Source of the DNA: Mucilaginibacter saanensis
Lineage (GTDB): Bacteria; Bacteroidota; Bacteroidia; Sphingobacteriales; Sphingobacteriaceae
Assembly (NCBI RefSeq): GCF_014200575.1
Contig: NZ_JACHBZ010000001.1
Location: forward strand, 806,001 to 870,000
Length of the DNA: 64,000 nt
Reading direction: 5' to 3'
Shown here: piece by piece, positions 10,978-63,528 of the stretch
How positions within the stretch are numbered: position 1 is the stretch's first letter
Layout: each line of letters opens with the position of its first letter
The notes under the pieces: generated by a model
Told to the model about the DNA's origin: nothing
Database searches by the model: none
Seen by the model: the letters and a program-made list of their open reading frames with translations, nothing else
Program-made: the position numbers and the translations under genes

Positions 10978-11052
10978 AACTAATGGCAGATGATCATGGT
11001 GAAAGTAACAGGAAAGATATATGAACAATATTGCATGTTTTTTGAGCCGTAG

Positions 11053-13038: not shown

Positions 13039-13064
13039 TAGAGAAGATTCCAGTATTGGGAATT

Positions 13065-13108
13065 ATTATCCAGGCAATTGATCAGCGCGGGTTTTATTGC
13101 CGGGTAAT
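13065..13108. terminator. Hairpin between convergent esterase and dnaE2 genes
   Basis: Arms ATTATCCAGGCAAT (13065-13078) and ATTGCCGGGTAAT (13096-13108) pair along 13 positions with one bulged A and one G-U pair, around a 17-base loop. It lies between the stops of two convergent genes (13038 plus, 13127 minus), so it could terminate both. Neither side has a long T tract, which lowers confidence. Confidence 0.5.
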
Positions 13109-13126
13109 ATAATGGCATTCAAATAC

Positions 13127-16297: not shown

Positions 16298-16302
16298 CAC
16301 TA

Positions 16303-17799
16303 TTATGCAAAAAAACCATGTAAAAACCATTCCGGTGCTGTATCAAAATGGCCCGAACGGAATAGCCAGTAACGTTGGCCCTGTTCATCTTCTACCGCAT
16401 AATAGTCCCGATGTACGCCCTGATCCTGCCACCATTCCCGCTCTATGCGTTCGGGACCGTCTGCTTTAACTACCACATGCCGCCGGCCCCTGTAAGTAAA
16501 CACCTTCGGTGGATAATCTGGTAAAAGCGCCATTACCTCAATACTTTCCGGGCGAGGCAACAAACGGATAGGTCTTGGCCGGTTCGTTCGCCAGGAAGTT
16601 CCCGGCATCTCCTGCAAAGAGATCGCCGGCCTGATTGACCGCTCTGGCCAGTAATGCTCGGCAGGCAGGTAACGCCGGATGCGGTCCTGGCCCACCTTGG
16701 TAGCAATGCGGTCCAGCAGTTCGGCCAATGCATTATCTGCAAGACCCGGGTTGCCGGTCCAAAGCTTTTCCTGCAGCACCTCCACATCCTCCACTTTGGA
16801 GGCCTCCAGCAAAAAGAGTTCAATACCTAAAGCTGGTTCTATCTTCGCAATTTGTAATTCAAACAGCTTAAACAAGTGCGATACACTATGTGAGCCCCGG
16901 TTGGTACTGATCCCGGTCTGAACCATTTTGCCATCAACACGGTAGCATTTTAACACCGCCCTGCGCAAACCCTTGCCCTCATTTTGCAGCAGCAGACAAA
17001 GCCTTTCTAAAAGTTGTTGAACAGCTATCTCAATACCTGTAGCGGTACAGATTGGTTCTAAACAGGGTAGCCGTTCCACAAAAGGTACCGGCGGTACTAC
17101 AGGCAGCAGTATTTCCTCTTCCAATCCCAGGGCTTGCCTGAGCCGCAACAGTAAGCCCTCGCCAAAGCGCCGCCGTAATTCACGCTGTGGCATTAACATA
17201 AAGTTGCCTATGGTTCGCAAGCCTAATTTTTGTAAACGCTCCAGTACTGGTTGCTCCAGCCGTAAAGCTGCAGGCGGTAAAGCCAGTAAAGCCTGCGCCT
17301 GATTGCCCGCCGGAATAATAGGAGAAACTCTTCCAAAGCGTGCTACTGCCCAGGCTGTTCCCACCGTATCAGCTATTGCCGCCCGTGCATCATAACCAGA
17401 AGTACGTAATTTCAAAACAAGCTCCTTCAGGTAACCCTGTTCGCTGCCCCATAAATGTGTGCAACCTGAAATATCCAGTAGCAATGTGTCTGGTGCATCT
17501 GTAGCAACCAAAGGTGTATAACGCATGCACCATAAGCCCAGTTGCCGCAATAGCCTGGCTTCTTTCCCGGGGATAGCATCCAGTACCTGCAAATTTATCG
17601 TCATTGCCTTTGCATCGGCCGCGGCCATACCTGCAAAAATGCCTTCGGCCTCTGCCAGGTAACTGGCCGCTGTAACCACCATGCGGTTACGCTCAGGTAG
17701 TACGCAAACAAAAGGTATTTCACGCAATTCCGGCCGGCGTAGCATCAGCCAGTCTGTAACCAGATGCCTGAACCAGATTGCCATATAACGCTTAGCCAT
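16303..17799 (-). CDS. imuB: ImuB, catalytically inactive Y-family polymerase-like protein
   Basis: A 498-residue protein related to Y-family polymerases such as DinB, but lacking their paired catalytic acidic residues. In characterised mutasomes ImuB is the hub that links ImuA and DnaE2 to the beta clamp. Visible: MAKRYMAIWFRHLVTDWLMLRRPELREIPFV, then a palm-like region with LLLDISGCTHLWGSEQGYLKEL where active polymerases have their second acidic motif, an HhH-like LERLQKLGLRTIGNFMLMPQRELRRRFGEGLLLRLRQALG, and a C-terminal domain ending YWLFRSGHFDTAPEWFLHGFFA. Its start overlaps the imuA stop by 8 bases, showing translational coupling. The call rests on gene order as well as sequence. Confidence 0.95.
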   Translation of the reverse strand: MAKRYMAIWFRHLVTDWLMLRRPELREIPFVCVLPERNRMVVTAASYLAEAEGIFAGMAAADAKAMTINLQVLDAIPGKEARLLRQLGLWCMRYTPLVATDAPDTLLLDISGCTHLWGSEQGYLKELVLKLRTSGYDARAAIADTVGTAWAVARFGRVSPIIPAGNQAQALLALPPAALRLEQPVLERLQKLGLRTIGNFMLMPQRELRRRFGEGLLLRLRQALGLEEEILLPVVPPVPFVERLPCLEPICTATGIEIAVQQLLERLCLLLQNEGKGLRRAVLKCYRVDGKMVQTGISTNRGSHSVSHLFKLFELQIAKIEPALGIELFLLEASKVEDVEVLQEKLWTGNPGLADNALAELLDRIATKVGQDRIRRYLPAEHYWPERSIRPAISLQEMPGTSWRTNRPRPIRLLPRPESIEVMALLPDYPPKVFTYRGRRHVVVKADGPERIEREWWQDQGVHRDYYAVEDEQGQRYWLFRSGHFDTAPEWFLHGFFA

Positions 17800-18517
17800 A
17801 ACGCTGGCTCCTTTCTACCATCGGGTTATCAGTAATCACGCTAAACTGGCCTTCATCCCATTCCATGATCCAACTACCCAGCTGCCCGTTCCGCACTTTT
17901 AGCAATTCAATTTGCCAGCGAGGGAAGCCCAAACCCGGTAAGCCCGCTATGGCCTCACTGGGTAATGGTTTAATATGCCAGCGTGCAGCACAGGCAGTTG
18001 ACCCTGGTTTCTTTGAAGAGTTCCGCAAAATAAAACCAGTTACCCGACTTTGTTCTACCGCCAGCTGCAGGCGGCGCGATTGTTTAAAATCCAATGTTTG
18101 TACTTCGCCGATCACTGCAGCAAGGCCCGGGCATTTGAGCGCTTCTTCCATTATCCATAACACATCCTGATCCCGCAATACATTCAAAAAGATCACCTTA
18201 TCGGGCTCGATACCAAAATTTTTTAGTGCCGGAGCAAATAACATTTGCGATAGCCCGATCCATAAACACGCGCCACCCTGCTGCATCAGTACAGACAATA
18301 AGCCGGTTATAAACCCACCTGTGGCAGCTGCCTGCCCGCTATTTTCGCATACCAGTTCATGTACAGTTCCCACCGGAAATACTCCATTAGGAAAAGCTGC
18401 TTCTACGGGGCCCAGTCCAACCAGCCCATGTTTATGCGCGGGGGCAGGCTGGTAGCCTTCCCATTGCAAAATATCTTTTTGCAGCTGGCTGATGATATCT
18501 CTTTTAGACTGCGACAT
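17792..18517 (-). CDS. imuA: ImuA, RecA/SulA-like mutagenesis protein
   Basis: A 241-residue RecA-like protein, first gene of the imuA-imuB-dnaE2 cassette. I start it at MSQSKRDIISQLQKDILQWEG; an upstream in-frame ATG at 18538 would add seven residues and reach toward the operator-like palindromes. The family signature GTVHELVCENSGQAAATGGFITGLL is followed by GGACLWIGLSQMLFAPALKNFGIEPDKVIFL and VLWIMEEALKCPGLAAVIGE, the degenerate RecA fold seen in ImuA proteins. ImuA is required with ImuB and DnaE2 for damage-induced mutagenesis and inhibits RecA in some bacteria. Regulation is probably part of the DNA damage response, given the palindromes 26 bases upstream. Confidence 0.93.
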   Translation of the reverse strand: MSQSKRDIISQLQKDILQWEGYQPAPAHKHGLVGLGPVEAAFPNGVFPVGTVHELVCENSGQAAATGGFITGLLSVLMQQGGACLWIGLSQMLFAPALKNFGIEPDKVIFLNVLRDQDVLWIMEEALKCPGLAAVIGEVQTLDFKQSRRLQLAVEQSRVTGFILRNSSKKPGSTACAARWHIKPLPSEAIAGLPGLGFPRWQIELLKVRNGQLGSWIMEWDEGQFSVITDNPMVERSQRYG

Positions 18518-18542
18518 AACATTAAAATCAGACCACAAATTT

Positions 18543-44463: not shown

Positions 44464-45363
44464 TTAATGTACAGCAAAAGCTTTTACAAAAACGGCTCCA
44501 CCATCAAACAATATCACGTACTTAGTATTGTTTGAGGTGATCAATACAGCGTACGCTTTAACGGTTCCGTCAATGCTTGCGGCGTAAGCTTTGTCAAACA
44601 CATAACCGGGATAGGTTGTGCTCAAATAAGTGGTAATGCTTGCGGGCAGGTTGGCGGCGGCTAGCGATGTATACTTGCCAATGTTTTTGTCAATCTGTAT
44701 ACGTTTAACAAAGGTGCCGCTGGCTTTAATGGCCGTTGCAAATAATCCGTTGTTTCTACTAAACAGGATATAGGTACTGTCCGGCGCAATGGCGGCATGT
44801 AAAAGGGTATCAGTTGAGTAGTTAGCAGAAAAGTAGCTGGTAACAGCTTTGGGTAAGGCTGATAAAGCTATGGTATCCCTGTGTTTGCCATCCCTGTTAT
44901 CAAACGGGCCACCGGGGTGCCAACCTCTGCCCACCAGATCGGGCCCCTCCCTTTGTTCCAGGATGCTTACAAATGTTCCTGTTGCGGTGAACTTGAGTCC
45001 TATATAATTGCTGTTATATTTAATCAGCACAATATAGTTCACTACCGTTTTAATACTATCGGTAATGGTATAAGCCTTTTTAAAGGTATAGCCGCTGTAA
45101 TTAGCTGTAAGATAATTGCCAATGGCTGTTGGCAGGGCACTAAAGGCAACGGTGTCTTTTTTGTCATGATGACCATAGCAGCCAACCATGTACACGCTGT
45201 CGGTAGTACCCGAAGCCAGGTTAATCCCAATAGCACCGGTTGATGTAACCGTAGTTGAGCTAGTGCTTTTAGCTGCAGCCGATTTGGAAGCATTGTCTTT
45301 CTGACATGATGATAGACAGCTTAATGTGCCCATCACCACCAACATAGTGTAAATAGATTTCAT
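44464..45363 (-). CDS. Lipoprotein with three PepSY-like (BLIP-like) repeats
   Basis: A 299-residue lipoprotein; the chosen ATG gives MKSIYTMLVVMGTLSCLSSC, with the lipidated Cys at about residue 20. After a Ser/Thr-rich linker it has three related units, each starting with a Leu-Pro helix: SALPTAIGNYLTANYSGYTF, SALPKAVTSYFSANYSTDTL and ANLPASITTYLSTTYPGYVF, each followed by strands with KAY..., YIVLIK or YAVLIT. These match the PepSY-like putative beta-lactamase-inhibitor-like domains common in Bacteroidota. The family may bind or inhibit proteases or other periplasmic proteins, but no function is established. It is adjacent to, and on the same strand as, a pepsin-like lipoprotein. Confidence 0.8.
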   Translation of the reverse strand: MKSIYTMLVVMGTLSCLSSCQKDNASKSAAAKSTSSTTVTSTGAIGINLASGTTDSVYMVGCYGHHDKKDTVAFSALPTAIGNYLTANYSGYTFKKAYTITDSIKTVVNYIVLIKYNSNYIGLKFTATGTFVSILEQREGPDLVGRGWHPGGPFDNRDGKHRDTIALSALPKAVTSYFSANYSTDTLLHAAIAPDSTYILFSRNNGLFATAIKASGTFVKRIQIDKNIGKYTSLAAANLPASITTYLSTTYPGYVFDKAYAASIDGTVKAYAVLITSNNTKYVILFDGGAVFVKAFAVH

Positions 45364-45510
45364 TTTTTTTTGAATTAATTTAACAATCAATTTTATGCAG
45401 GGAGACAGGCTAATTTTGGTAGTATGAAATTAACGGAGAGGTGCTTTGCTTGTATTAATGTATCGACGAATGTGGATTTAAAATCGATAAATGAAAGATG
45501 CAGCCAGCGT

Positions 45511-46599
45511 TTAATTATTCTTTAAACCAATCTGGTGATTGCCATAATCGGTAAGATATTCATTCTTGATAAAAAAATCGATGCTGAGGATAGTCCTGTA
45601 ATCATCTGTATTGTTGGGGTTTTGTATCTCAGTAAGGTTGCCTGTGCTTGATGTGATGTAAATATAGGTAAAACCTTTGTTGGTAGTTATGGTAACTTCC
45701 GAATTTGCAGGCAGCGCACCCAAGGCGTTGGTAGCCAGTTTGTCTTCAATAATGGTAATGGATGGAGTGCCAGTGTCAAACAGAAATTGTGCAGAAATAG
45801 TTTTTCCACTGTATGAGATAGTCCCCGGTATATCAGGGGAGTAGCCGCCGCTTGAATAATAAGTAAGCGGGTGCATAATAAAATTTGATGATGACAGATC
45901 TGAGGCGGTTAATCCCATGGTAAGTAATCCGGAAACATAAGTGCCCGTGCTGCTAAATCTTGAAGCATTTAAAGTGGCCAGTTTAAAACCGCTGGTGAGT
46001 GCTGTGCCGGTTTCAAAATATCTTAACGGGCTTGTAATATTGCCATTGGCATAGCTCACGCCAGGGCCTACACCAAAAACATCGGCGGAGTGGGCAGATA
46101 ATTGCTTACCATTTCCATCAATTATTTTGTAATATAAAAAAATGGGGACACGCTTAAATGTGTAACTACCGGCTGTGTTACCTATTTTAATATTGGCGTA
46201 CGCCAGGTTACCATACTCTTTGGTAATACCGGTAGCATCGCCATAACTTACTGTACCTGTTTTTGAGGTTACGGTAATGCCACTTACAACTACCGAATCG
46301 CCTGTTATTTGTATGCCCGATGCGGTGATCATGGATGCAGGTAATATATTTGCGGCATCAATGGTCATGCCTGATGATCCGGTGTCAAATATTTCGTAAT
46401 AGTTTATTGTTTTAGTGCCGATTTGTGTAACGGGAATAAATATTCTTTTATTTACACCGCTTACATATTCATAAAGACCGATGCTAACCGGGGTAATGTT
46501 TGCTGCTACATTTTTATCTTTTTTGCAGGCGTTTAGGCACACCATAAAAAACATGCAAAGCACCGGCAAGTACCGTAAACAAATCCTGGTTAGTTTCAT
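45511..46599 (-). CDS. Lipoprotein with pepsin-like (A1-type) aspartic protease features
   Basis: A 362-residue lipoprotein: MKLTRICLRYLPVLCMFFMV leads to a lipobox ending in Cys25. Two catalytic-type motifs are present: Asp72 in FDTGSSGMTI and Asp275 in FDTGTPSITI, 203 residues apart as in bilobal pepsins. Tyr119 in TVSYGDATG sits 47 residues after the first Asp, where pepsin has its flap Tyr (43 residues after). GVGPGVSYANG, SGLLTMGLTASD and the C-terminal ILSIDFFIKNEYLTDYGNHQIGL match the order of pepsin's GLGYPS-type, LTFGG-type and ILGD-FLR-YY-FD-N-IGLA signatures. Family A1 is rare in bacteria. An inactive relative or a DUF3443-like protein is the alternative; activity is not shown. Confidence 0.72.
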   Translation of the reverse strand: MKLTRICLRYLPVLCMFFMVCLNACKKDKNVAANITPVSIGLYEYVSGVNKRIFIPVTQIGTKTINYYEIFDTGSSGMTIDAANILPASMITASGIQITGDSVVVSGITVTSKTGTVSYGDATGITKEYGNLAYANIKIGNTAGSYTFKRVPIFLYYKIIDGNGKQLSAHSADVFGVGPGVSYANGNITSPLRYFETGTALTSGFKLATLNASRFSSTGTYVSGLLTMGLTASDLSSSNFIMHPLTYYSSGGYSPDIPGTISYSGKTISAQFLFDTGTPSITIIEDKLATNALGALPANSEVTITTNKGFTYIYITSSTGNLTEIQNPNNTDDYRTILSIDFFIKNEYLTDYGNHQIGLKNN

Positions 46600-46703: not shown

Positions 46704-47324
46704 TTAATTGCATTTGCTTAAACCTTCCGAGCTGGAAATATCGGCTGGTTTAATAATGAGGGCTTTTTCAAAAAATGTGCGGGCATCAGCTTTTTTACCG
46801 GCCATTAGGTTTGCCCATCCCAGCATGTGATTACCATCATAATCAAACGGATACAGGTTAACCACCGCCTTAAAGTATCTTATGGCAGCCTCATATTGCT
46901 TGCGATTGTAATAAATTGTACCTGCCCAGTAATTAGCCTGCGTATTTTGCTGGTCAATTTTTAGTACAGCCAGGTATTGTTCAAGCACCTTATCCCAACT
47001 TTGCAGGAACGAGAGGGGTTTTACATAGCCAAACTTGGCCTCAATAGCGCCGGGTTTTAAATTAACCGCTTTTTGATAGTAAGATTGTGAGGCAGTATAA
47101 TTTTTGTTAAGATAATGAAGCCAGCCTAAACGTATATTAAGCTCATAGCTATTGTCGGTATAGTAAGGGTATATATCGTTAATGGCTGCTACGTAATTCT
47201 TGTTCAATTCATCGGCATAGCTGTTATGGAAAGCTTTTTGCAATACGGCATTGGTTTGCGCCTGTAGTTTAGTTATTAATAATATTAAAAATACTGCTAT
47301 AAACGTTTTTTTTAAAATTTCCAT
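46704..47324 (-). CDS. Exported TPR protein
   Basis: A 206-residue protein with a signal peptide ending near LLITKLQAQ. At least four TPR-like units are seen: SYADELNKNYVAAINDIYPYY, LNIRLGWLHYLNKNYTASQSYYQKAVNLKPG, ANYWAGTIYYNRKQYEAAIRYFKAVVNLYP and HMLGWANLMAGKKADARTFFEKALIIKP. TPRs mediate protein contacts. It overlaps the upstream barrel gene by 13 bases and is the last gene of the pqqD-to-TPR operon, so it is probably a periplasmic partner of the barrel protein. Confidence 0.88.
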   Translation of the reverse strand: MEILKKTFIAVFLILLITKLQAQTNAVLQKAFHNSYADELNKNYVAAINDIYPYYTDNSYELNIRLGWLHYLNKNYTASQSYYQKAVNLKPGAIEAKFGYVKPLSFLQSWDKVLEQYLAVLKIDQQNTQANYWAGTIYYNRKQYEAAIRYFKAVVNLYPFDYDGNHMLGWANLMAGKKADARTFFEKALIIKPADISSSEGLSKCN

Positions 47325-48490
47325 GCGATACCTAACGTAACAGAATTTTGATTATAGTTTACAGAATGGTAAACATCTGTTTTCTTTTCATAAATATAGT
47401 TTAATTCTAATAACGCGTGGGTTGTTAACCGGTAAAAAGCGGTTTCGCCACATTTAAACTTTGTCGGATCGATGGCGTTATATACGTAAAGCCCATCCTC
47501 ATCCAGATAATCATCCTGATCCCCAAAAGTAACTGACGACTCCAACCAGGTTTTTTTTGTCAGCTTAAAACCAATTACCTGGTTATATATCCAATTGTTT
47601 TTGCCACTTAAGTTTAAAATGCTACCCCGGCTTGTGCTATACAGGTCAAGGTTGCCTAATGGATAAAAATCCACTTTGGCATTATATTGTTTAATGCTAT
47701 TGCTAATAAGCTGCCCCCAGTTAATATCGCCCTGCAAATCTAAATAACGGGTTGTATATTTTATACCCAGTAATCCTAAATTACTATTGTACGTATTACT
47801 CCGGTAATTAGTATACAGATAATGGTACGATGTTAGCAAACTGATGTTGCTGTTAAGCGCATACTTTGCCTTTACAAAGTATTCAAGCTGCCTGTCCGTT
47901 GCTCCTTTTTGATTGTTTTTGTCAATATATCTTGAGCGAAATATCCTTTGGTTAAAAGATATGACGGATTGTTCTAATTGTAACCGCCATGACAGACGAT
48001 TACTTAAGCCCAGCCGTTCATAGAAGCCATTGTCGCGCTCATTATTATCGGGCAGTTTTATCCCGCTTTCAAGCCTGCCTTCGATAAGGCCAAACGGCGA
48101 CAGTTTGATACTATGCTGCGTTTCCTTATCCAGATTGGAGGCGTAATAGGAAGCTCCGGAATAATTGTTTAAATAAGTATTGCAATAGTAGGCATAAAGC
48201 CGCGCTGTTGAACTGCGCGAATCATTACTGAGTACTTTGTTAAACTGAGAAATGGCTGCTTTATAGTTACCCGTAATAAAGTAAGCATAACCCATTTTAA
48301 AACGCAGGCCGGGAAAGTCAATACTGTCTGCTATTGATTGATTGCCATACTTGATGAGCTGTTTCCAATTGGCTGTGCTGTATAGCTGTTCGGCAACACT
48401 ATCAGCCGTAGCAAAGTTGTTCTCTTGCGCATCTGCGGCAAAAAAAGCAAAAATTAAAGCAGGAAGGATTAAATATTTTTTGTATCCCAT
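47312..48490 (-). CDS. TPR protein with YaiO-like outer-membrane beta-barrel
   Basis: A 392-residue exported protein with a signal peptide ending near FFAADAQ. Residues 30-130 carry TPR-like helices (WKQLIKYGNQSIADSIDFPGLRFKMGYAYFITGNYKAAISQFNKVLSND). The rest is a beta-barrel of alternating strands (NRLSWRLQLEQSVISFNQRIF, YFVKAKYALNSNISLLTSYHYLYTNYR, LGLLGIKYTTRYLDLQGDINWG) ending VTLGIAWKF with a terminal Phe. TPR-plus-barrel proteins resemble the YaiO family of outer-membrane proteins. It overlaps the UT-M23 gene by 22 bases and the TPR gene by 13. It would be the outer-membrane component of this operon. Confidence 0.82.
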   Translation of the reverse strand: MGYKKYLILPALIFAFFAADAQENNFATADSVAEQLYSTANWKQLIKYGNQSIADSIDFPGLRFKMGYAYFITGNYKAAISQFNKVLSNDSRSSTARLYAYYCNTYLNNYSGASYYASNLDKETQHSIKLSPFGLIEGRLESGIKLPDNNERDNGFYERLGLSNRLSWRLQLEQSVISFNQRIFRSRYIDKNNQKGATDRQLEYFVKAKYALNSNISLLTSYHYLYTNYRSNTYNSNLGLLGIKYTTRYLDLQGDINWGQLISNSIKQYNAKVDFYPLGNLDLYSTSRGSILNLSGKNNWIYNQVIGFKLTKKTWLESSVTFGDQDDYLDEDGLYVYNAIDPTKFKCGETAFYRLTTHALLELNYIYEKKTDVYHSVNYNQNSVTLGIAWKF

Positions 48491-50631
48491 TGTACTTTAA
48501 TATGATGGCCTTTTATATTTATACTAAATGCCTGTAAGTTGCCCTGGTCAATGTTCACCACGGCTTCCATTGTTTGTGATTTTTTGCCGGTAATTTCCAG
48601 GTATTGTTTTGCCCCTATGCTCAATCCCTTTTTTTGAATAAGTGCACTGCTTTGATAACTGATATTGATAAACCGGTAAAAAGGAGCCAAAAAATCCTGA
48701 AGCCACAGCAATGGTTTGTTTTCCATAACCTGTAACGGCAACTGGTCATCAGCAACTACGCCTTCGGCATCGCTAAAGACAATTTTATAGGCTGCCAGAT
48801 AAAAATAATATAGCAGCGAATGGTTACTGCCATAATAACTGGTGAAATAAAACATAGTGCCGTTGTTGATAAAATACGCAACAGCGCCGGTGTTTTTGCT
48901 GCATAGATAGGATTGACCCAGTACATCCTTAAATACCTCCCAATTCTCTGTAATGCCTTGTTCACTGACGAGTTTTGCCGTATAACCAGGCTGCAGATCG
49001 AATGCTTTTTTTATGGATTGATTGATTTGGGGATTGCTTACTACTTTTCCCTCGGTTGGTATTTTGTAGCTCTCCAGGCTATTGATTTGCGGGTTCCGGT
49101 TAAAGTAATAGGCAAAAGGGTAAGCCAGTGTTTTTGAACCAATATAGGGGGTAGCCTGTATTTGAAAATGTAGATGTGGTTCAGGCGAACGCCCTGAATT
49201 GCCGCACAAGCCCAGCATATCCCCCTGTTTTACAGCATCGCCGGGGTTAATTTTTATAGAGTTTTTTTTTAGGTGCGATACCTTTGAATACAATCCCACA
49301 GCATGGCGTAACACCGCTGTGTTGCCCCAGTTTTCTGTCAGGTTTACGCTGCCAATGGGGTTGTCGTCCACATGGTTCACTATTTGTTCTACAATGCCAT
49401 CGGCACAGGCCAATACGGGCTTATTGTAGCAGTAAAAATGTTCAGGCAGGGTACCTGGGTACTGGTAGGTATTGTGTTCATCGTCGCTGATCACAAAATC
49501 CAGCGCCTGGCCCCATTCTGCCTGATGGGTCAAAGTGCCGTTATAGCCTTGTGAAACGGTCCAGAAACCCATAAAAGGTAAGTTCAGTTTCAAGTACTTC
49601 AAATCGTTTAAACGGGTTTGATGGTTTAAAAACTGGTAAAGATTTCTTTCGGGAGAATAATGCTGTACTGTTACGAGCTGAATTTTGCCTGAGTTTTTTC
49701 CTAACCTTAAAAAATACAACAGGCTTATATTGGCTATGCAGAATGGCAGCGAAAAAACAGGCAGGAGATGGACAGCCATAAGACCGGTAAGGGCGTTAAC
49801 CAATATAAATACCACAGGGATACATAATATGGCTAACAAATAGGAGCGTAAAGACGGAATGGTGAAGAAGCTCCCGACAGCTACTGATGTCATCATAAAA
49901 TTTGCTCCTAAATGATAGTAGCTAGTACCTTCGGGATAGATATGGGTAAAGTAATTAAAACCACAGGCTGCTACGAAGCCGATAACCAGTAAGCTAAAGG
50001 ATATGCGCGAATGGATAAGCACCCCCACGCTGATGAGCATACCTGCAAAAATATGATGCTGAAATAAAACAGCACTTAAAGCTCTGAAAAATAAACTGAG
50101 CATTTTGGGCAGATGCAAGGTAAGATAACCTTCAATACCGGCAAGGTGCCCTGGGCCGTTATAAATTTCCTGTAGCAGGTAGCTGGTTTTTTGTTGCAGG
50201 CCAGTATTAAAAATACTATTTGCGGCTAATAGCACCAGCCAAAACACCAGTATAAAAGGCAAGGAAAGTACCGGTAGTCCTGATTGGGCAAGTTGTTGTA
50301 AAAGTATGCGGGCTGTAATAACCACCATGATGCAGGCAAATATCAACCAGATCACGAACATGTAGTTAACCTGGTAAAACGCCCCGAATGCTATCCCCAA
50401 TAGCAGGCTGTTAAAGCTGTAAGTACCTGTTTGCAAATCGTCTGCCGGGAATTTTAACAGGTGCCCGGTTAACAGTGAAAAAACAACGCAGCCTAAACCA
50501 GCAAATCCTGATGCGGGGTTAAAAAATGAAACAAGCAGTAAGATAATTCCTAATATCTGGTTTTGCGAAAAAAACAGGATAGCATAAGAATTAATTATCG
50601 ACTTTGTAAATAATGAAATTTGCTGTTTCAC
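48469..50631 (-). CDS. Urea transporter-like membrane domain fused to an M23 peptidase
   Basis: A 720-residue two-part protein. Residues 1-310 have about ten hydrophobic segments and match the urea-transporter family in layout: SFFNPASGFAGLGCVVFSLLTGHLL, GTYSFNSLLLGIAFGAFY and a second half with SYYHLGANFMMTSVAVGSFF, where family members carry the pore signature. From about 340 to 520 lies an M23 (LytM-like) domain with zinc-site residues His369 and Asp378 (THQAEWGQALDF) and His486/His488 in RSPEPHLHFQIQ, a G-rich GDMLGLCGNSG before it. The last 180 residues are beta-rich. The peptidase domain should face the periplasm. The start overlaps the decarboxylase stop by 4 bases. The substrate of the channel is unproven. 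Confidence 0.88.
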   Translation of the reverse strand: MKQQISLFTKSIINSYAILFFSQNQILGIILLLVSFFNPASGFAGLGCVVFSLLTGHLLKFPADDLQTGTYSFNSLLLGIAFGAFYQVNYMFVIWLIFACIMVVITARILLQQLAQSGLPVLSLPFILVFWLVLLAANSIFNTGLQQKTSYLLQEIYNGPGHLAGIEGYLTLHLPKMLSLFFRALSAVLFQHHIFAGMLISVGVLIHSRISFSLLVIGFVAACGFNYFTHIYPEGTSYYHLGANFMMTSVAVGSFFTIPSLRSYLLAILCIPVVFILVNALTGLMAVHLLPVFSLPFCIANISLLYFLRLGKNSGKIQLVTVQHYSPERNLYQFLNHQTRLNDLKYLKLNLPFMGFWTVSQGYNGTLTHQAEWGQALDFVISDDEHNTYQYPGTLPEHFYCYNKPVLACADGIVEQIVNHVDDNPIGSVNLTENWGNTAVLRHAVGLYSKVSHLKKNSIKINPGDAVKQGDMLGLCGNSGRSPEPHLHFQIQATPYIGSKTLAYPFAYYFNRNPQINSLESYKIPTEGKVVSNPQINQSIKKAFDLQPGYTAKLVSEQGITENWEVFKDVLGQSYLCSKNTGAVAYFINNGTMFYFTSYYGSNHSLLYYFYLAAYKIVFSDAEGVVADDQLPLQVMENKPLLWLQDFLAPFYRFINISYQSSALIQKKGLSIGAKQYLEITGKKSQTMEAVVNIDQGNLQAFSINIKGHHIKVQWDTKNI

Positions 50632-51983
50632 TTATCGGGTTTTAAATGGCCGGGTATAATTTCCGGTTCTTCGGTATAATGGAGTGTTTCACCTGTGCGT
50701 ATAACATGGGTATGTTGCTGTTTATCAATAAGCACCACGGCTGGCCGCAGGGTAATAAACTGCATCCATTGCGTCATGTTATATGCTCCAACCTGATGTA
50801 CCACCACCTGATCGCCTGGATCCAGTAATGGCAGGTTAATGCTTTCTCTTATCACATCAATATTCATGCACAGCGGGCCATAAATAATCATGTTTTCGTT
50901 ATGCGAGTTAAAATCCTGCGCCGGACTTATCTGATGTTCATACCAAAAGGAGGTGAATAAAATATTTACGCCAAAATCAACAATGGTGGCCCTTTTGCCA
51001 TTGCTCAGGCGTTTGTTGGCTACAACCGTGCCTAACAGGTAACCTGCATCGTCAATAAGTACCCGCCCGCTTTCCAGGATAAGCAGGGGCAGATCATCCT
51101 GTGCAAAGCCAAAATTGAGGATGGTGGACGTAATTACTTCAGCAAAGTCGTCAACAGTTGGTACCGTATCAGACCCGGGAAGATAAGCTCCCTTTAAGGT
51201 GTTGGTTGAGGGAAAACCACCTCCCATATCAATATATTCAATTTTATGATGCAACTGCGCCTTGCAGCGCATAGCCAGGTCACAAAGCTTATTTGCCGCT
51301 ATTTCATAAGCCCCGGCCGAGAGCATGTAGGTACCTATATGGCAGTGCAGGCCAACTAATTGTAGTTTGTTTGAGTTGATTGTTTTTTCAATGGCTGTCC
51401 AGGCCTCATTGTTTTCATAGTTAAATCCAAAACGGTCCCAGGATGGGTATACACCGGTATCCATGTTAACACGGATAGCTACCCTGGGTTTAGTTGCCAG
51501 TTTTTTACTTAAGACAAGCAGCTGATTTAACTCTTCAAAATGATCAATATGGATAAGGGAGTCATTGTCAATTGCTGCCTGCAAATCATCATTTGATTTG
51601 CCCGGACCATTGAAAATGATCTTGTTGCCGGGTATGCCGTTACGCAATGCTTTATGATACTCAAAACCGGATACTACCTCGGCCCAGCTGCCTTCCTGGT
51701 GAAATATCTGGCAAACGGCATTTAGATAATTGGTTTTATAGCTCCAGGCAAACTGCACTTTGGGGTAGCGGGTACTGAATGCCCTGTAAGCTGATCTGTA
51801 GTTTTTGCGGATTTTTTTTTCTGATAAAACAAAAACCGGCGATCCGTAATTTTCTATCAGGCTTTTGACCGAAACTCCATCAATTTGCTTAACTGGCTGT
51901 ATACCAGTACGGGTACCAAATTTATTCATAACCCCGGCATGGAGCTTTTTAATGTATGGTTTTTCGTAAGTCAGTTTTTCCAT
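50628..51983 (-). CDS. Fold-III PLP-dependent decarboxylase (LysA/Orn-DAP-Arg decarboxylase family)
   Basis: A 451-residue enzyme of the alanine-racemase-fold decarboxylases. I start it at MEKLTYEKPYIKKLHAGVMN, 10 bases past the ATP-grasp stop; a 41-residue upstream extension is unlikely. PLP binds Lys83 in FAWSYKTNYLNAV. Other marks are VSGFEYHKALRNG, GLHCHIGTYMLSAG, EYIDMGGGFPS, LESGRVLIDDAG (phosphate site), and the partner-subunit block GPLCMNIDVIRESINLP with QVGAYNMTQWMQF. LysA acts on meso-diaminopimelate, relatives on ornithine, arginine or carrier-bound glutamate; the substrate here is unknown. The primary lysine pathway LysA usually lies elsewhere, and the company of PqqD and ATP-grasp genes suggests a dedicated product. 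Confidence 0.9.
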   Translation of the reverse strand: MEKLTYEKPYIKKLHAGVMNKFGTRTGIQPVKQIDGVSVKSLIENYGSPVFVLSEKKIRKNYRSAYRAFSTRYPKVQFAWSYKTNYLNAVCQIFHQEGSWAEVVSGFEYHKALRNGIPGNKIIFNGPGKSNDDLQAAIDNDSLIHIDHFEELNQLLVLSKKLATKPRVAIRVNMDTGVYPSWDRFGFNYENNEAWTAIEKTINSNKLQLVGLHCHIGTYMLSAGAYEIAANKLCDLAMRCKAQLHHKIEYIDMGGGFPSTNTLKGAYLPGSDTVPTVDDFAEVITSTILNFGFAQDDLPLLILESGRVLIDDAGYLLGTVVANKRLSNGKRATIVDFGVNILFTSFWYEHQISPAQDFNSHNENMIIYGPLCMNIDVIRESINLPLLDPGDQVVVHQVGAYNMTQWMQFITLRPAVVLIDKQQHTHVIRTGETLHYTEEPEIIPGHLKPDK

Positions 51984-51993
51984 GATGATAAGG

Positions 51994-53064
51994 TTAAAAT
52001 TCTCCAAAAACTGAAATTTGCTGAAAGTCGGCAATGTCCGCAATATGATCCCATGAATACCTGATAAACAGTTTACCAGCCTGGTAATCACCATAAGGAG
52101 TAACATCTTCCCCGAGGGCCATTTTTACCAACGCGGCAGGCTGGTTATGCCCGGCCGCCACTGCCAGGTATATCCAGGCCGGAAACCGGGGGTTAACCTC
52201 CAGTATGTATAAATCGCCGTCTTCGTTTTTCATGATCTCCATTTCATAACCACCTTGCCAGTGGGTTGCGCGGGCAAAACTATCTGCCAGTTCAAGCAGT
52301 TTTGGGTCTTTAATGGTTACACCGGCCCATGCTTTGCCTTTTTCAGTAATATATAGTTTACGCATGGCTACTATGCTGGTATTATTTCCTTTACCATTGC
52401 CCAGGGCAGCAATATTAATTTCAGTTCCTTTAATAAATTGCTGAGCTATTACTGGGCCACCCCATAGCGCATTAAGCTGATGAAATGATTTAAGTGCCTG
52501 GTCAATGGTATAAACTATGTAGGCATCGTAAAATTTCCCCTTAATAACCATGGGGAAGTTAAATTCATCGGCTGCTCTCTTTACGTCTTCGGATGTAAAT
52601 AACTTATGATCAGCAGGTACGTGAAAATCATATTTTGCCCCAAAATCCTTTAAATTTAGTTTGTCCCTTAATGCAAGCTGCTGGTGCGATGGTAAAAAGC
52701 TGGCTATACCCAGCCGCTTTAACTGTGGTGCTATTTTTATAAAATTAAACAGCTCTGAATCAAAATTAGGAATGATAATATCCAGGTTTTCCTGCTGATG
52801 TACGTAAGTGAGCCGGTTAAACAAAGCCGTGCTTCCTTCGGTTGGATAGGGGATCTGATAGGTTTTTTTAACATGCTCATGCATATAAATACCCGGTTCA
52901 AGAGATTCATACGATAAGCCGATTATCTTAATACCATCACCAAATGCGGCTTTTAATGAACGTATTACCGCCATGCCCGGGCCGGGGTTGTCATTGGCGT
53001 TAAGGCCGGTAACAGCAATACATAAACACGAGTACTTTTCTGCCGTCATAGGCTTAGGTTTCAA
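51994..53064 (-). CDS. ATP-grasp ligase
   Basis: A 356-residue ATP-grasp enzyme, carboxylate-amine or carboxylate-thiol ligase type. The N-terminal Rossmann-like part has AVTGLNANDNPGPGMAVIRSLKAAFGD, the middle holds the ATP lysines (FNFPMVIKGKFYDAYIVYTIDQAL and GGPVIAQQFIKGTEINIAALG), and the metal-binding end is GGYEMEIMKNEDGDLYILEVNPRFPAWIYLAV, with the E-x-N-P-R motif complete. It is related in shape to carbamoyl-phosphate synthase ATP domains but too short for one. It overlaps the PqqD-like gene by 11 bases. In other clusters ATP-grasp enzymes add amino acids to peptides or carriers; the substrates here cannot be read. Confidence 0.9.
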   Translation of the reverse strand: MKPKPMTAEKYSCLCIAVTGLNANDNPGPGMAVIRSLKAAFGDGIKIIGLSYESLEPGIYMHEHVKKTYQIPYPTEGSTALFNRLTYVHQQENLDIIIPNFDSELFNFIKIAPQLKRLGIASFLPSHQQLALRDKLNLKDFGAKYDFHVPADHKLFTSEDVKRAADEFNFPMVIKGKFYDAYIVYTIDQALKSFHQLNALWGGPVIAQQFIKGTEINIAALGNGKGNNTSIVAMRKLYITEKGKAWAGVTIKDPKLLELADSFARATHWQGGYEMEIMKNEDGDLYILEVNPRFPAWIYLAVAAGHNQPAALVKMALGEDVTPYGDYQAGKLFIRYSWDHIADIADFQQISVFGEF

Positions 53065-53296
53065 GCAGGTTAGCTTCTTTTAACTGTGCAATCCAGTCGT
53101 CCCAATCACGTTCTAACTGGTCGGCACTCACATTGTATTTTTCCAGAATATCTTTTTTAATATCTTCTGCTGGTTTGCCGCTTTTCATAGCCAGCAGCAA
53201 TTGTGCGGCCATAGCATTGCCTGAAAAAGAATCGCCGGTGGCCGGGTTAAAAATAAATCCGTTTTCGCTGGTTGCGATATTACTTTTAATTTTCAT
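53054..53296 (-). CDS. PqqD-like small protein (RiPP recognition element type)
   Basis: An 80-residue protein with the PqqD pattern: two strands in NIATSENGFIFNPATGDSFSGN, a helix in AMAAQLLLAMKSGKPAEDIKKDILEKY, and DQLERDWDDWIAQLKEANLLE, which forms the last helices of the winged fold. PqqD-like domains bind leader peptides and present them to modifying enzymes. It is the first gene of a six-gene overlapping operon, ahead of an ATP-grasp enzyme. No convincing precursor peptide gene was seen in the 147 bases upstream, so the bound partner may be encoded elsewhere or may be a different carrier. Confidence 0.85.
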   Translation of the reverse strand: MKIKSNIATSENGFIFNPATGDSFSGNAMAAQLLLAMKSGKPAEDIKKDILEKYNVSADQLERDWDDWIAQLKEANLLET

Positions 53297-53934: not shown

Positions 53935-54630
53935 CTATTTTACCAGGTCTTTGATAAACTCGGCGTAGTTGGTTCCAACAGGTAACTCAATCTTATTTAA
54001 TTTGATCTTCCTGTTGTAAATTGACCTGATCTGAGCACGTGATACCACATAGCTCCGGTGAATCCTGATAAACAGGTTAGCGGGTAGTTTTTCAATTACG
54101 TTTTTTAAAGGCATCAGGGTTAATACCGGCTTTTCGGCATTTATCAAGTATATTTTGATGTAATCCTGCATACTCTCTATGTATTCAATATCTCTTATAC
54201 TGATCTTGATCATCCGGTATTCTGAGTGTACAAACAGGTACTCGTCGCTCCCGGCATGGCTGGTATTTTTAAACTGATAATAGTCTATAGCTTTATTTAC
54301 TGCGGCGCCAAAACGAATGTGGTTAATAGGTTTTAACAGGTAGTCAACAGCCTCCAGTTCAAAACCCTCATAGGCAAAGTTTTTATGGGCGGTAGTAAAT
54401 ATGATCATCGGCTTTTCCTGCAGGGAGCGTACCAAATCAACACCACTAATATCGGGCATGTTAATATCTATGAAAAGGATATCAACCTTGTTCTTTTCTA
54501 AATACTCTGCACCGGAAACGGCATCATCAAAGGTGTTTACCAATTTTAAGGTTTGATAATCGGCTATATATCTTTTAATGATTTCCAGTGCCAGGGGCTC
54601 GTCATCAATGGCTACACATTTTAATTGCAT
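53935..54630 (-). CDS. LytTR-family response regulator (second pair)
   Basis: A 231-residue response regulator; the ATG at 54630 (MQLKCVAIDDEPLALEIIKR) is 10 bases after the kinase stop and is preferred to an upstream TTG. The receiver has Asp9/Asp10, phospho-acceptor Asp55 in DILFIDINMPDISG, Thr in IIFTTAHKNFA and Lys in DYLLKPINHIRF. The LytTR DNA-binding domain begins near residue 130 (YLFVHSEYRMIKISIRDIEYIESMQDYIKIYL) and ends IRIHRSYVVSRAQIRSIYNRKIKL with IELPVGTNYAEFIKDLV. It is the partner of the kinase encoded just upstream. Confidence 0.96.
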   Translation of the reverse strand: MQLKCVAIDDEPLALEIIKRYIADYQTLKLVNTFDDAVSGAEYLEKNKVDILFIDINMPDISGVDLVRSLQEKPMIIFTTAHKNFAYEGFELEAVDYLLKPINHIRFGAAVNKAIDYYQFKNTSHAGSDEYLFVHSEYRMIKISIRDIEYIESMQDYIKIYLINAEKPVLTLMPLKNVIEKLPANLFIRIHRSYVVSRAQIRSIYNRKIKLNKIELPVGTNYAEFIKDLVK

Positions 54631-54640
54631 ATAATTTTCA

Positions 54641-55834
54641 TTAGGTGTCAATTTCTAATTCAACCCGGTAAAGCCCATCAACGGAACTAATATTTAACCG
54701 GTGCCTGCGAGGGTAAATATGCTGCAACCGTTGCCGGGTATTGGCAATGCCTATCCCTTTACGGTTTGAAAGCGGCCGGTTGTCAAATATGGTATTCTCG
54801 CACATAAACAGAATTTTACCGGGCAGTACCTTCAGGTCAATACGGATGGTTGATGGTTCATGCTTGCTTACCCCATATTTAAATACATTTTCAATAAAGG
54901 TCATTAGCACCAGAGGTGGTATTTTTTGCTGATTGGTATTGCCCGAATGACTGAAACTTAAAGTTGTTTTTTTGCCTAAACGGAGTTTTTGCAGATCGAT
55001 ATAATCATTTATACAATCTATTTCGTTTTGGAGTAAAACAAAGTCTTCGGTAACTTCATCCGTAACATACCGCATAATGTTGGATAGTTTCATGATACTT
55101 TCTGACGTGTGCTTGCTATCTGTAACTGACAGGGCGTAAATATTATTAAGGGTATTGAAAAGAAAATGCGGGTTGATCTGTGCCTTAAGGAACGATAGTT
55201 CGGCATGTGCTTTTTCTGCTTCGGCCCTGATTACCATTTGTTCGGTAAGCTGCCATTTTTGTACGGTGCTAACTGCAATACCCAAACCCATCACTATAAT
55301 AAAAATAAACAGGCCAACCATATCAATATTGCCCGATTGATGTATAAAAATGATACGGTTAGATGGTTTTAAACTGGGGTCCTGCATACGCAGATCCTCA
55401 TGCGGCAGCGGGCCAAAGGGCATGCTTTGTCCGGGCGTAGTGGCGCTGTCGCCCACGCTGGCAATACCAGTATGATCAGTACCAGCCTGACCCATATTAA
55501 GCTGATTGTTTTGTTTACTGCTTTTAAGCAAGTTGTGCCCAAGCAGGTTATCAAATGGTTGTAAAAAATATACGCAGCCTGAAAGCAGCAAAACAATAAG
55601 CCCGTACCAGATATATTTTTTGCGAAATACAAATTGCGGCACCAGGTACCAGGCATTAAAGTAAAACATGAAAATATATGTTAAACAGAACAGCCAGTAA
55701 TAAGGCGAAAGCATTACAATAAAAGAAAAAGTGCTGTTTTGCTGTGTACGGTTCATGAATAATAAGGGGAAGCCAAAAAATACCAGCCAGCCAGCAGCGT
55801 GAATAAAAAAATTGGTGGCTTTCGATCTGATCAT
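54641..55834 (-). CDS. LytS-type sensor histidine kinase (second pair)
   Basis: A 397-residue membrane kinase. Three hydrophobic segments lie between residues 8 and 93, then a hydrophilic loop of about 75 residues rich in Gln, Gly and Ser, and a further membrane helix (MVGLFIFIIVMGLGIAVSTV, 172-191). The phospho-acceptor is His223 in INPHFLFNTLNNIYAL; the ATPase boxes are IPPLVLMTFIENVFKYGVSK and RKGIGIANTRQRLQHIYPRR. The loop could be the sensing element, which the first LytS protein in the window lacks. The ATG directly follows a TAA that closes a 62-codon upstream frame of doubtful coding value. Confidence 0.94.
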   Translation of the reverse strand: MIRSKATNFFIHAAGWLVFFGFPLLFMNRTQQNSTFSFIVMLSPYYWLFCLTYIFMFYFNAWYLVPQFVFRKKYIWYGLIVLLLSGCVYFLQPFDNLLGHNLLKSSKQNNQLNMGQAGTDHTGIASVGDSATTPGQSMPFGPLPHEDLRMQDPSLKPSNRIIFIHQSGNIDMVGLFIFIIVMGLGIAVSTVQKWQLTEQMVIRAEAEKAHAELSFLKAQINPHFLFNTLNNIYALSVTDSKHTSESIMKLSNIMRYVTDEVTEDFVLLQNEIDCINDYIDLQKLRLGKKTTLSFSHSGNTNQQKIPPLVLMTFIENVFKYGVSKHEPSTIRIDLKVLPGKILFMCENTIFDNRPLSNRKGIGIANTRQRLQHIYPRRHRLNISSVDGLYRVELEIDT

Positions 55835-62293: not shown

Positions 62294-62397
62294 TCTTTCC
62301 CCTTTTTTTAACACTTGATTTTTAGTTGAGGCATTGATGTCTTGGCTTCACGTGTATGTTATTGTATTTTAACTCATTTGATTTAAATAAACCAATT

Positions 62398-62976
62398 ATG
62401 CCACACATTAATTTACCACATGAATTTCCGGGTATTCGTAGCCTGTTCATGTACCGGCCAGAAACAGCCGCGCCCTTAAATTCCCTTGTGCAAACCTTGC
62501 TCCATAACCCACACCCAAGCCTCAGTGCCGGCGAACGGGAGTTGATAGCCACTTATGTATCAGGTTTAAATACCTGTAAATATTGTACAAGTATACACGG
62601 TGCCATAGCCCAGCACCAGTTGGGCAATAATGCAGCCATAGTTAAACAGGTGCTGGCCGATCCTGAAAGTGCCCCAATCAGCAATAAGCTTAAAGCTTTA
62701 TTAAAAATTGCTGCCAGCGTACAGGCCGGGGGCAAAAATGTTACCATTGCCGATGTTGAATTTGCCCGCGAGCAGGGAGCAACAGATATTGACATACATG
62801 ATACCGTATTAATAGCCGCAGCATTTTGTATGTATAACCGCTATGTTGATGGCCTTGCCACCTGGCAGCCCGATAATGATGAACTGTATGATAAAATGGG
62901 AGAACAGCGTGCCCGCGAGGGATATCTCACCGCACCTTTTAAAATAAACCGTACCGAAGAATTACAAAACCTTTAA
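62398..62976 (+). CDS. AhpD-like carboxymuconolactone decarboxylase family protein (first of tandem pair)
   Basis: A 192-residue protein of the AhpD-like/peroxidase-related family. The ATG at 62398 (MPHINLPHEFPGIRSLFMYRPETAAPLNSL) gives the same N terminus as its neighbour; a longer frame is unlikely. The redox core is ELIATYVSGLNTCKYCTSIHGAIA: Glu48, Cys60, Cys63 and His67 as in AhpD alkylhydroperoxidases. The C-terminal HDTVLIAAAFCMYNRYVDGLATW is shared with the next gene. It probably reduces peroxides or an unknown disulfide substrate. The paralogue starts 12 bases later. Confidence 0.9.
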   Translation: MPHINLPHEFPGIRSLFMYRPETAAPLNSLVQTLLHNPHPSLSAGERELIATYVSGLNTCKYCTSIHGAIAQHQLGNNAAIVKQVLADPESAPISNKLKALLKIAASVQAGGKNVTIADVEFAREQGATDIDIHDTVLIAAAFCMYNRYVDGLATWQPDNDELYDKMGEQRAREGYLTAPFKINRTEELQNL

Positions 62977-62988
62977 CTGATAAAAAAC

Positions 62989-63528
62989 ATGGCACATATT
63001 AAATTACAAAACGAAGAGCTACCCGGTATTGTTGGTTTATTGGATTACCGCCCTGAAACGGCCAAGCCATTGCTTGATCTGGCCGAAACCTTGTTACGCG
63101 GGCCATCAAGCCTTACAAGCGGCGAGCGGGAAATTATTGCAGCATCGGTATCTTATTGGAACCAATGTCATTTTTGCCATACGTCGCACGCTGCTGCTGC
63201 AGTAGCCCATTTAAAAAGCGGTATAAACCTTATTGATGACATTAAAGCAGGCCTGCCTGATACGCCAGTATCAACAAAGCTAAGGGCGCTTCTGCACATT
63301 GCCCACCAGGTGCAAGGCAACGGGAAAAATGTAACCGAAGATGATGTGGCTGCAGCCCGTGCAGAAGGGGCCACCGATAACGAGATACATGACACCGTTT
63401 TAATAGCCGCCGCATTTTGTATGTACAACCGGTATGTTGATGGTCTGGGTACCTGGGCGCCGGGCCCTAATGAAGCCTATGTAGAAATGGGCGAGCGTAT
63501 GGCCCACGTTGGTTATGTAAGGTATTAA
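62989..63528 (+). CDS. AhpD-like carboxymuconolactone decarboxylase family protein (second of tandem pair)
   Basis: A 179-residue paralogue of the preceding gene product. The core is EIIAASVSYWNQCHFCHTSHAAA with Glu48, Cys60, Cys63 and His67 at the same positions, and the same C-terminal block HDTVLIAAAFCMYNRYVDGLGTW. Identity is high at the N- and C-terminal blocks but low between them, so the duplication is old. AhpD-like proteins often work as oligomers, and the two may form a mixed complex. A perfect terminator follows after 23 bases. Confidence 0.91.
   Translation: MAHIKLQNEELPGIVGLLDYRPETAKPLLDLAETLLRGPSSLTSGEREIIAASVSYWNQCHFCHTSHAAAAVAHLKSGINLIDDIKAGLPDTPVSTKLRALLHIAHQVQGNGKNVTEDDVAAARAEGATDNEIHDTVLIAAAFCMYNRYVDGLGTWAPGPNEAYVEMGERMAHVGYVRY

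Follow-up and report, generated by a model that had tools for sequence, protein, structure and literature searches.

Why should genes for a PqqD-like protein, an ATP-grasp ligase and a pyridoxal phosphate (PLP)-dependent decarboxylase stand in one operon with a membrane channel fused to a peptidase domain, an outer-membrane barrel and a TPR protein? This question is raised by a stretch of 64,000 nucleotides from Mucilaginibacter saanensis (GCF_014200575.1, NZ_JACHBZ010000001.1, positions 806,001-870,000 of the forward strand), which is called here the window and to which the coordinates below refer. A first-pass annotation of this DNA had divided the operon into a biosynthetic and an envelope half, had assumed that both halves belong together and had pointed out that no standard pathway combines such genes; these views are supported by the present analysis. 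We consider it practically certain that the genes constitute a real functional system. As to its role, the reading which we favor, and to which we would assign as a whole a probability of roughly 45%, involves ligation, decarboxylation, release and export of a decarboxylated basic-amino-acid product, either a diamine or its amide. The six genes are as follows.

53054-53296, minus strand: PqqD-like small protein of 80 amino acids (Pfam PF05402)
51994-53064, minus strand: CarB-like ATP-grasp ligase (Pfam PF15632/PF02655), with a TTG start at 53064
50628-51983, minus strand: PLP-dependent decarboxylase of the alanine-racemase fold (fold III; Pfam PF02784/PF00278)
48469-50631, minus strand: UT-M23 fusion (Pfam UT and Peptidase_M23), with a GTG start
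47312-48490, minus strand: TPR-barrel outer-membrane protein with a signal-like N-terminus (predicted TPR-like helices and 14-strand beta barrel)
46704-47324, minus strand: TPR protein of 206 amino acids with a signal-like N-terminus (Pfam TPR_2)

The layout described previously for these six minus-strand genes (46704-53296), in which neighbors overlap by 11, 4, 22 and 13 bases or, in one case, are 10 bases apart, was confirmed by a check of open reading frames, and the claim of one transcription unit is supported. The start of the decarboxylase gene is an internal ATG of a longer listed frame (50628-52106), and the ATP-grasp gene has an alternative ATG start at 53049, corresponding to the 351-amino-acid form in the protein database (entry P0116); its junction with the PqqD gene is an 11-base overlap with the TTG start and a 4-base gap with this ATG. 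Matches in Pfam and NCBIfam bear out the assignment of the PqqD-like, ATP-grasp, fold-III decarboxylase, UT-M23 and TPR proteins, the Pfam scores (bits/cut-off) being 40.1/23.4 for PqqD, 43.0/29.1 for ATPgrasp_Ter, 107.5/23.4 for Orn_Arg_deC_N, 157.6/25 for UT, 55.1/28.7 for Peptidase_M23 and 62.7/27 for TPR (TPR_2).

Rather than being scattered in related genomes, which would speak against a common function, these genes keep their synteny across the phylum. A scan of GTDB species genomes for similarity to UT-M23 yielded 33 loci, including those of Mucilaginibacter, Pedobacter, Hufsiella and several Chitinophagaceae. All six genes occur in the order and strand of the window in 25 of them; four others (L007, L020, L027 and L033) are cut by contig ends and show the same order as far as visible, and four (L028, L029, L030 and L032) lack the first three genes. 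Such an arrangement goes far beyond what chance would produce. Among 296 sampled Bacteroidota genomes, a UT-M23 profile (at 1e-40) matched 28, one of which (G267), with an M23-only protein of 322 amino acids, was left out; an ATP-grasp profile (at 1e-60) matched 27, exactly the 27 genomes with UT-M23. The genes for both proteins share a contig in all of these genomes, at a distance of a few kilobases; in G124, which has a single contig, a further, partial pair is found at the opposite end. The system is thus present in roughly one of every eleven genomes sampled (27/296). When the cluster regions of these genomes other than that of the window were fetched, the succession PqqD, ATP-grasp, decarboxylase and UT-M23 on a single strand was seen in all 26, with a weak PqqD (40 bits) and an extra gene before ATP-grasp in L120. 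UT and M23 are encoded in two frames in L118 (genome G005, 9444-11698); the break sits at a homopolymer and may be a sequencing error, hence gene fission was discounted there.

Both domains of the fusion were present in 120 of 120 proteins in each of two listings, among the matches listed; named proteins of the second listing came mostly from Ignavibacteria, with one partial sequence from a Desulfobulbaceae-labelled genome and one Chlorobiaceae-labelled. Where the source gave names, the channel was usually called 'urea transporter' and the ligase often 'carbamoyl-phosphate synthase large subunit'. A literature search in openly licensed full texts brought up no description of the system, and a scan for anti-phage defence gave one weak match only. 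Each part comes from a known family; as a whole, we regard the system as categorically new.

The four loci devoid of the first three genes proved informative about the chemistry. No ATP-grasp of the first type was detected at 1e-40 in their genomes (G296-G299). At L032, however, a VOC protein, a decarboxylase and an ATP-grasp protein stand divergent from UT-M23. This decarboxylase, of 916 amino acids, belongs to the fold-I Orn/Lys/Arg family (PF01276, 270.2 bits), and the ATP-grasp protein, of 488 amino acids, scores 734.6 bits with PRK06524, over the cut-off of 684. The VOC-type protein of L032 itself had no significant Pfam match and was assigned through a relative at L172 (PF00903, 27.6 bits versus 20.6), with 49-53% identity between them. 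Among 80 relatives of G299 (itself included), UT-M23 was found in 19; the regions around it were retrieved from the 18 other than G299 and also from G298. Nine loci (L150-L158) have the VOC and Orn/Lys/Arg decarboxylase genes beside UT-M23, with the ATP-grasp gene too in eight; L156 is cut by a contig end, and the second-type ATP-grasp of its genome lies at the end of another contig. The second-type module is mostly divergent in orientation from UT-M23, and no PqqD accompanies it there. Eight loci (L159-L162 and L164-L167) have the first-type module beside UT-M23, and two (L163 and L168) have neither. In G375, represented by L163/L175 and L177, PqqD, ATP-grasp and decarboxylase are together on a contig separate from UT-M23; the suspicion that its UT-M23 gene is broken (a 'TAA inside' flag) was rejected, the frame reading 729 amino acids. 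In G298, the second-type module is also together on another contig, with one unrelated frame inside.

When 22 UT-M23 genomes, with G296-G298 added, were tested for both ATP-grasps, the first type was found in nine, the second in 11, both in none and neither in two (G296 and G297, of 2.0 and 2.9 Mb, respectively). The second type scored over the family cut-off in 10 of these 11, that of G318 being cut by a contig end, and in G297 the decarboxylase and VOC genes are still visible at L029, ahead of the contig end. In a tree of UT-M23, the rows with the second-type module, together with that of G298 (entered twice), group into a single 13-row clade (SH-aLRT support 100%), nested in a group of 45 rows (99%) which also holds first-type rows; it is a quick-method tree with a midpoint root, in which some other forks are weak and the branches of L116, L117 and L119 are flagged as long. 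The ligase-plus-decarboxylase half has therefore been swapped as a whole for a half made of unrelated enzymes, with the channel, TPR protein and barrel staying in place. It follows that the chemistry, ligation and decarboxylation, rather than any protein family, is the constant, and two unrelated enzyme pairs feeding the same channel would narrow the product to what both can make.

The PRK06524-type ATP-grasp also occurs in three of the 296 phylum genomes, none of which has UT-M23. One operon at L172 (2209-12027) contains the Orn/Lys/Arg decarboxylase, the PRK06524 ATP-grasp and the VOC gene, in the neighborhood of NCBIfam-assigned relatives of 4-aminobutyrate (GABA) transaminase, a nitrilase-type C-N hydrolase, C45 hydrolase and succinate-semialdehyde dehydrogenase. 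The C45 hydrolase scores over its cut-off; the transaminase, nitrilase and dehydrogenase are below the equivalog cut-offs, and an N-carbamoylputrescine-amidase-like neighbor reaches 80.8 bits versus a cut-off of 410.25. L173 and L174, which gave no VOC match, resemble L172 by eye, and the nitrilase is common to them, with 70-73% identity. Operons of this kind may represent a pathway by which ligated diamines are turned into GABA; if so, the amino acid would be ornithine, arginine or lysine.

A role of the two window enzymes in ordinary lysine or purine metabolism was rejected in view of a separate LysA, missed cut-offs and the tight co-occurrence with UT-M23; their scores are below the cut-offs for LysA, FslC and carbamoyl-phosphate-synthase-like models. 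The ATP-grasp protein resembles PRK12767-type models, likewise below their cut-offs. Its EVNPR metal site, previously called intact, is indeed so, with E289, N291, P292 and R293 invariant in 19 aligned rows. In the decarboxylase, the PLP-binding Lys83 recognized earlier is invariant together with Cys372 in an alignment of 18 rows, and both domains (PF02784 and PF00278) score over the Pfam cut-off. The best solved relative is 7kh2 (E 1.7e-60), and the closest families are FslC/FigC and LysA, although the scores against the NCBIfam models were 230.0 bits for FslC (NF041039; cut-off 500) and 227.2 bits for LysA (TIGR01048; cut-off 297.9), and the genome encodes a separate LysA (390 bits), on contig C19. 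The C-E-S-x-D motif of diaminopimelate (DAP) decarboxylases recognizes the distal end of DAP. The corresponding position reads C372-M373-N374-I375-D376 in all 18 rows, in which the stretch G-A-Y-N-M-T-Q-W-M-Q-F-I is also invariant. Residues of the FigC pocket for the alkyl chain and amide, as given in PMC7857480, are kept (M355 as M373, Y383 as Y401, R290 as R307, Y331 as Y348 and T327 as T344). In contrast, H357, R387 and N389 of FigC, which the same source presents as proposed citrate contacts, are replaced by I375, Q405 and M407. Since the pocket is kept and the proposed citrate contacts are not, the simplest reading would be that the substrate is a conjugate with an acid other than citrate.

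The UT-M23 protein is composed of a UT-family channel (residues ~1-339), an M23 metallopeptidase domain (~345-509) and a C-terminal domain (~510-720). The zinc ligands and catalytic histidines of M23 (H369, D378, H453, H486 and H488) are present in 77 of 77 non-gapped rows of an alignment of 78. Although M23 metallopeptidases are usually extracytoplasmic enzymes which reach peptidoglycan, the M23 domain is predicted here to be cytoplasmic, because the charges of the UT part follow the positive-inside pattern and the peptidase comes directly after the last helix of the UT fold. In 57 sequences, with loop limits set by hand, the mean numbers of lysine plus arginine residues were 1.35, 1.86, 1.19, 1.00, 1.00 and 5.84 on the cytoplasmic side and, for four outer loops, 0.07, 0.16, 0.00 and 0.25; in the long outer loop an average of 1.89 lysines plus arginines is outweighed by 3.35 aspartates plus glutamates. 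As to the channel itself, the UT fold is present, but the score with NCBIfam urea_trans_yut (TIGR03441) is 86.8 bits versus a cut-off of 274.6. Gln24 and Glu187 of dvUT, which we take to be the polar pair of the urea filter, align with I18 and A187 of the window protein. At the latter position an acidic or amide residue never occurs in 78 rows (A in 47, G in 13, L in nine, S in five, I, F and Y in one each, and one gap), and at the former Q is found in 27 rows and E in two, others being mostly hydrophobic. Judging from these residues, the channel is probably not a urea carrier.

The outer-membrane component had been called a YaiO-like barrel. A barrel is indeed predicted, the model combining TPR helices with 14 strands; the YaiO name is without library support, since no match so named appeared in Pfam or NCBIfam at E 0.1, where the presence of such a model in these libraries was not checked. 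The library matches are to barrels and TPR only, and weak, and the nearest folds in a fold search are small-molecule channels. The 13-base overlap of the barrel and TPR genes recurs in 27 of the 30 loci with both genes, starts being set by alignment to those of the window. In the 26 phylum-wide regions, the TPR gene was recognized downstream of UT-M23 in 23 and a barrel near the cluster in 25, the exception being L118, whose YaiO-type match was discounted as its frame is ~6 kb away. A match to the TPR-barrel model adjoins the cluster in nine regions, a TPR-less barrel follows the TPR gene in 10, the same barrel type stands upstream in three, and L116, L117 and L119 have a barrel-like protein behind UT-M23. 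In alignments with the window barrel, probabilities were 96.8% for the TPR-less type, 94.2% for the protein of L117 and 8.0% for that of L116, which aligns only with the TPR-less type (94.7%).

The role of the PqqD-like protein is less apparent. Its nearest solved structures by profile search are the lasso-peptide proteins TbiB1 and TfuB1, and its scores are below the cut-offs of the lasso and HPr-rel-A PqqD subfamilies. In 54 aligned rows the N-terminal GF.F...TG region is conserved and the C-terminus is variable; no conserved C-terminal attachment residue exists in these rows, and the idea of a carrier similar to LysW was rejected. No LysW-like protein was recognized. The absence of a precursor peptide, noted previously for the window, was borne out by a scan of small open reading frames in 60 loci, in which no candidate was found within 3 kb. 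Among 64 clusters of such frames present in at least four of the 60 loci, 58 are wholly and one mostly inside or opposite longer frames; the remaining five comprise one cold-shock gene, two frames over it and two short minus-strand frames without family. Because of the conserved N-terminus, the variable C-terminus and the lack of a precursor candidate, PqqD looks like an adaptor for some further partner or for the ligase itself. The cold-shock gene, coding for a protein of 63 amino acids (PF00313, 71.3 bits in L010), lies ~110 bases behind the TPR gene in L010, L011, L013, L014 and L017, five loci which are all from Pedobacter.

How could these components work together? In the mechanism that we favor, the ATP-grasp enzyme, with PqqD as its possible adaptor, would join a carboxylate to the side-chain amine of a basic amino acid. 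The PLP decarboxylase, whose class is evident from its sequence, would then strip the alpha-carboxyl group of the conjugate. M23, placed by charge pattern and fold at the inner, cytoplasmic mouth of the UT channel and retaining intact zinc and catalytic residues, would cut the amide bond and free a small product, which might pass through the channel to the periplasm and, with the help of the TPR protein and the 14-strand barrel, across the outer membrane. The product, the direction of transport and the M23 reaction are all inferred. The first-pass annotation had offered a related scheme, in which a carrier- or peptide-bound amino acid is ligated, decarboxylated and exported; this scheme is favored and strengthened by the replacement module, except that PqqD is unlike a C-terminal carrier and export is an assumption. 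More tentatively, Bacteroidota may possess here a trans-envelope machine not described before: a cytosolic M23 domain on a urea-channel fold would release a ligase-made, decarboxylated amine directly into the pore, and the barrel would complete the export; in evolution, two unrelated modules would have been fitted to one channel, with the product (a diamine or diamine amide) retained. If true, an amine compound would be produced and exported in a new way, an M23 peptidase would act in the cytosol, and a channel with the UT fold would probably have no part in urea transport.

Known systems share parts of this logic. The LysW/LysX route consists of attachment by an ATP-grasp enzyme, modification and release by a metallopeptidase, the order of events proposed here; in our case no LysW-like protein would be involved, and the releasing enzyme would be the channel-fused M23. 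In the Puu route, putrescine is gamma-glutamylated, which is also ligated diamine chemistry and recalls the second-type pair with its neighbors related to GABA transaminase and semialdehyde dehydrogenase, whereas UT-M23 clusters hold a channel and a barrel in place of catabolic genes. BtrJ is the ATP-grasp partner in the butirosin route. UT urea channels such as dvUT and UT-B differ from the present protein, which has fused M23 and C-terminal domains, has no polar residue of the filter type at the position of dvUT Glu187 and scores below the TIGR03441 cut-off. In the rhizoferrin route (FslA/FslC or FigA/FigC), according to PMC7857480, citrate is ligated to ornithine and N-citrylornithine is then decarboxylated. 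There, as is proposed here, ligation comes first and a decarboxylase of the alanine-racemase fold then works on the conjugate; the M, Y, R, Y and T pocket residues are common to both systems, which differ in the ligase (NIS synthetase there, ATP-grasp here), in the citrate contacts lost here and in the export genes. The same source names the BtrK/BtrI route to the butirosin side chain, where a related decarboxylase acts on a bound amino acid after ligation. In that route the substrate is held by a carrier protein; none was found in the present system, and PqqD has no conserved attachment end.

The direction of transport is the point at which a different reading is conceivable. UT proteins are passive channels, and a cytoplasmic M23 would encounter an imported substrate. 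The barrel and UT might take up a small amide or peptide, M23 would hydrolyze it, and the ATP-grasp enzyme and decarboxylase would re-ligate and decarboxylate the resulting pieces. The occurrence of the second-type pair in a catabolic-looking operon agrees with such salvage, but the six conserved genes include, by Pfam, no TonB-dependent receptor or periplasmic binding protein, and ATP-costly ligation followed by decarboxylation would fit synthesis better. We consider import unlikely. A peptide-based scheme, reminiscent of ribosomally synthesized and post-translationally modified peptides, seems rather improbable. TbiB1 and TfuB1, the closest structures to PqqD, bind lasso leader peptides, and a cytosolic peptidase would suit a release step, so that PqqD could bind the leader of an unlinked precursor, to which ATP-grasp adds an amino acid, later trimmed by the decarboxylase and released by M23. 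Yet the 60 loci offered no precursor candidate within 3 kb, and the second-type module manages without PqqD beside UT-M23.

UT membership, the carbamoyl-phosphate-synthase-like ATP-grasp and the N-carbamoylputrescine-amidase-like neighbor of the second pair (below cut-off) could together point to transport of urea or a ureido compound, for example N-carbamoylputrescine, with the CarB-like enzyme using or making a carbamoyl group. The residues at the dvUT filter positions, never acidic or amide at that of Glu187 and Q in only 27 of 78 rows, otherwise mostly hydrophobic, at that of Gln24, make this improbable. The second inference of the first-pass annotation, that DAP-containing wall fragments freed by a periplasmic M23 cutting peptidoglycan are imported and decarboxylated, is disfavored, and we find it very improbable. 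M23 does keep all its ligand residues, and most of its fold neighbors are wall hydrolases or their regulators; against this, the UT fold and charge pattern place it in the cytoplasm, the genome has its own LysA, the decarboxylase is below the LysA cut-off and reads C-M-N in place of C-E-S, and the decarboxylase that replaces it is of the Orn/Lys/Arg type.

Several observations concern the surroundings of the cluster. Upstream of the operon, the window contains two further genes:

54641-55834, minus strand: histidine kinase
53935-54651, minus strand: LytTR response regulator

Of 18 loci of the Sphingobacteriaceae type (L001-L017 and L033), 15 have this pair upstream, L007 being cut and L008 and L009 being without it; no match was found in L018-L026 or L031, some of which have short upstream stretches. 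The kinase and regulator are probably lineage-specific neighbors or regulators, outside the core. In eight of the 26 phylum-wide regions (L105, L106, L107, L109, L110, L112, L113 and L114), a homologous secreted protein of ~280 amino acids with a type IX secretion sorting tail and weak FG-GAP similarity is encoded directly upstream of PqqD, as a seventh gene there. PorU scored over the cut-off in 24 of the 27 genomes with the cluster, but not in that of the window, in G119 or in G266, on account of which type IX secretion was dropped as a core feature; the search also took in 20 cluster-free genomes, picked non-randomly from a printed list. Downstream of the cluster, at 44464-46599, proteins of 362 amino acids (with sub-threshold aspartyl-protease similarity) and 308 amino acids are encoded, which are kept in several Mucilaginibacter loci. 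Farther away, genes on the minus strand at 13127-18538 resemble, by eye, an ImuA-ImuB-DnaE2 mutagenesis cassette, and G+C content is elevated (0.47-0.51) across 12001-18000. At 62356-63528, two adjacent similar genes were recognized by eye as AhpD-type carboxymuconolactone decarboxylase-like, and are probably a tandem duplication.

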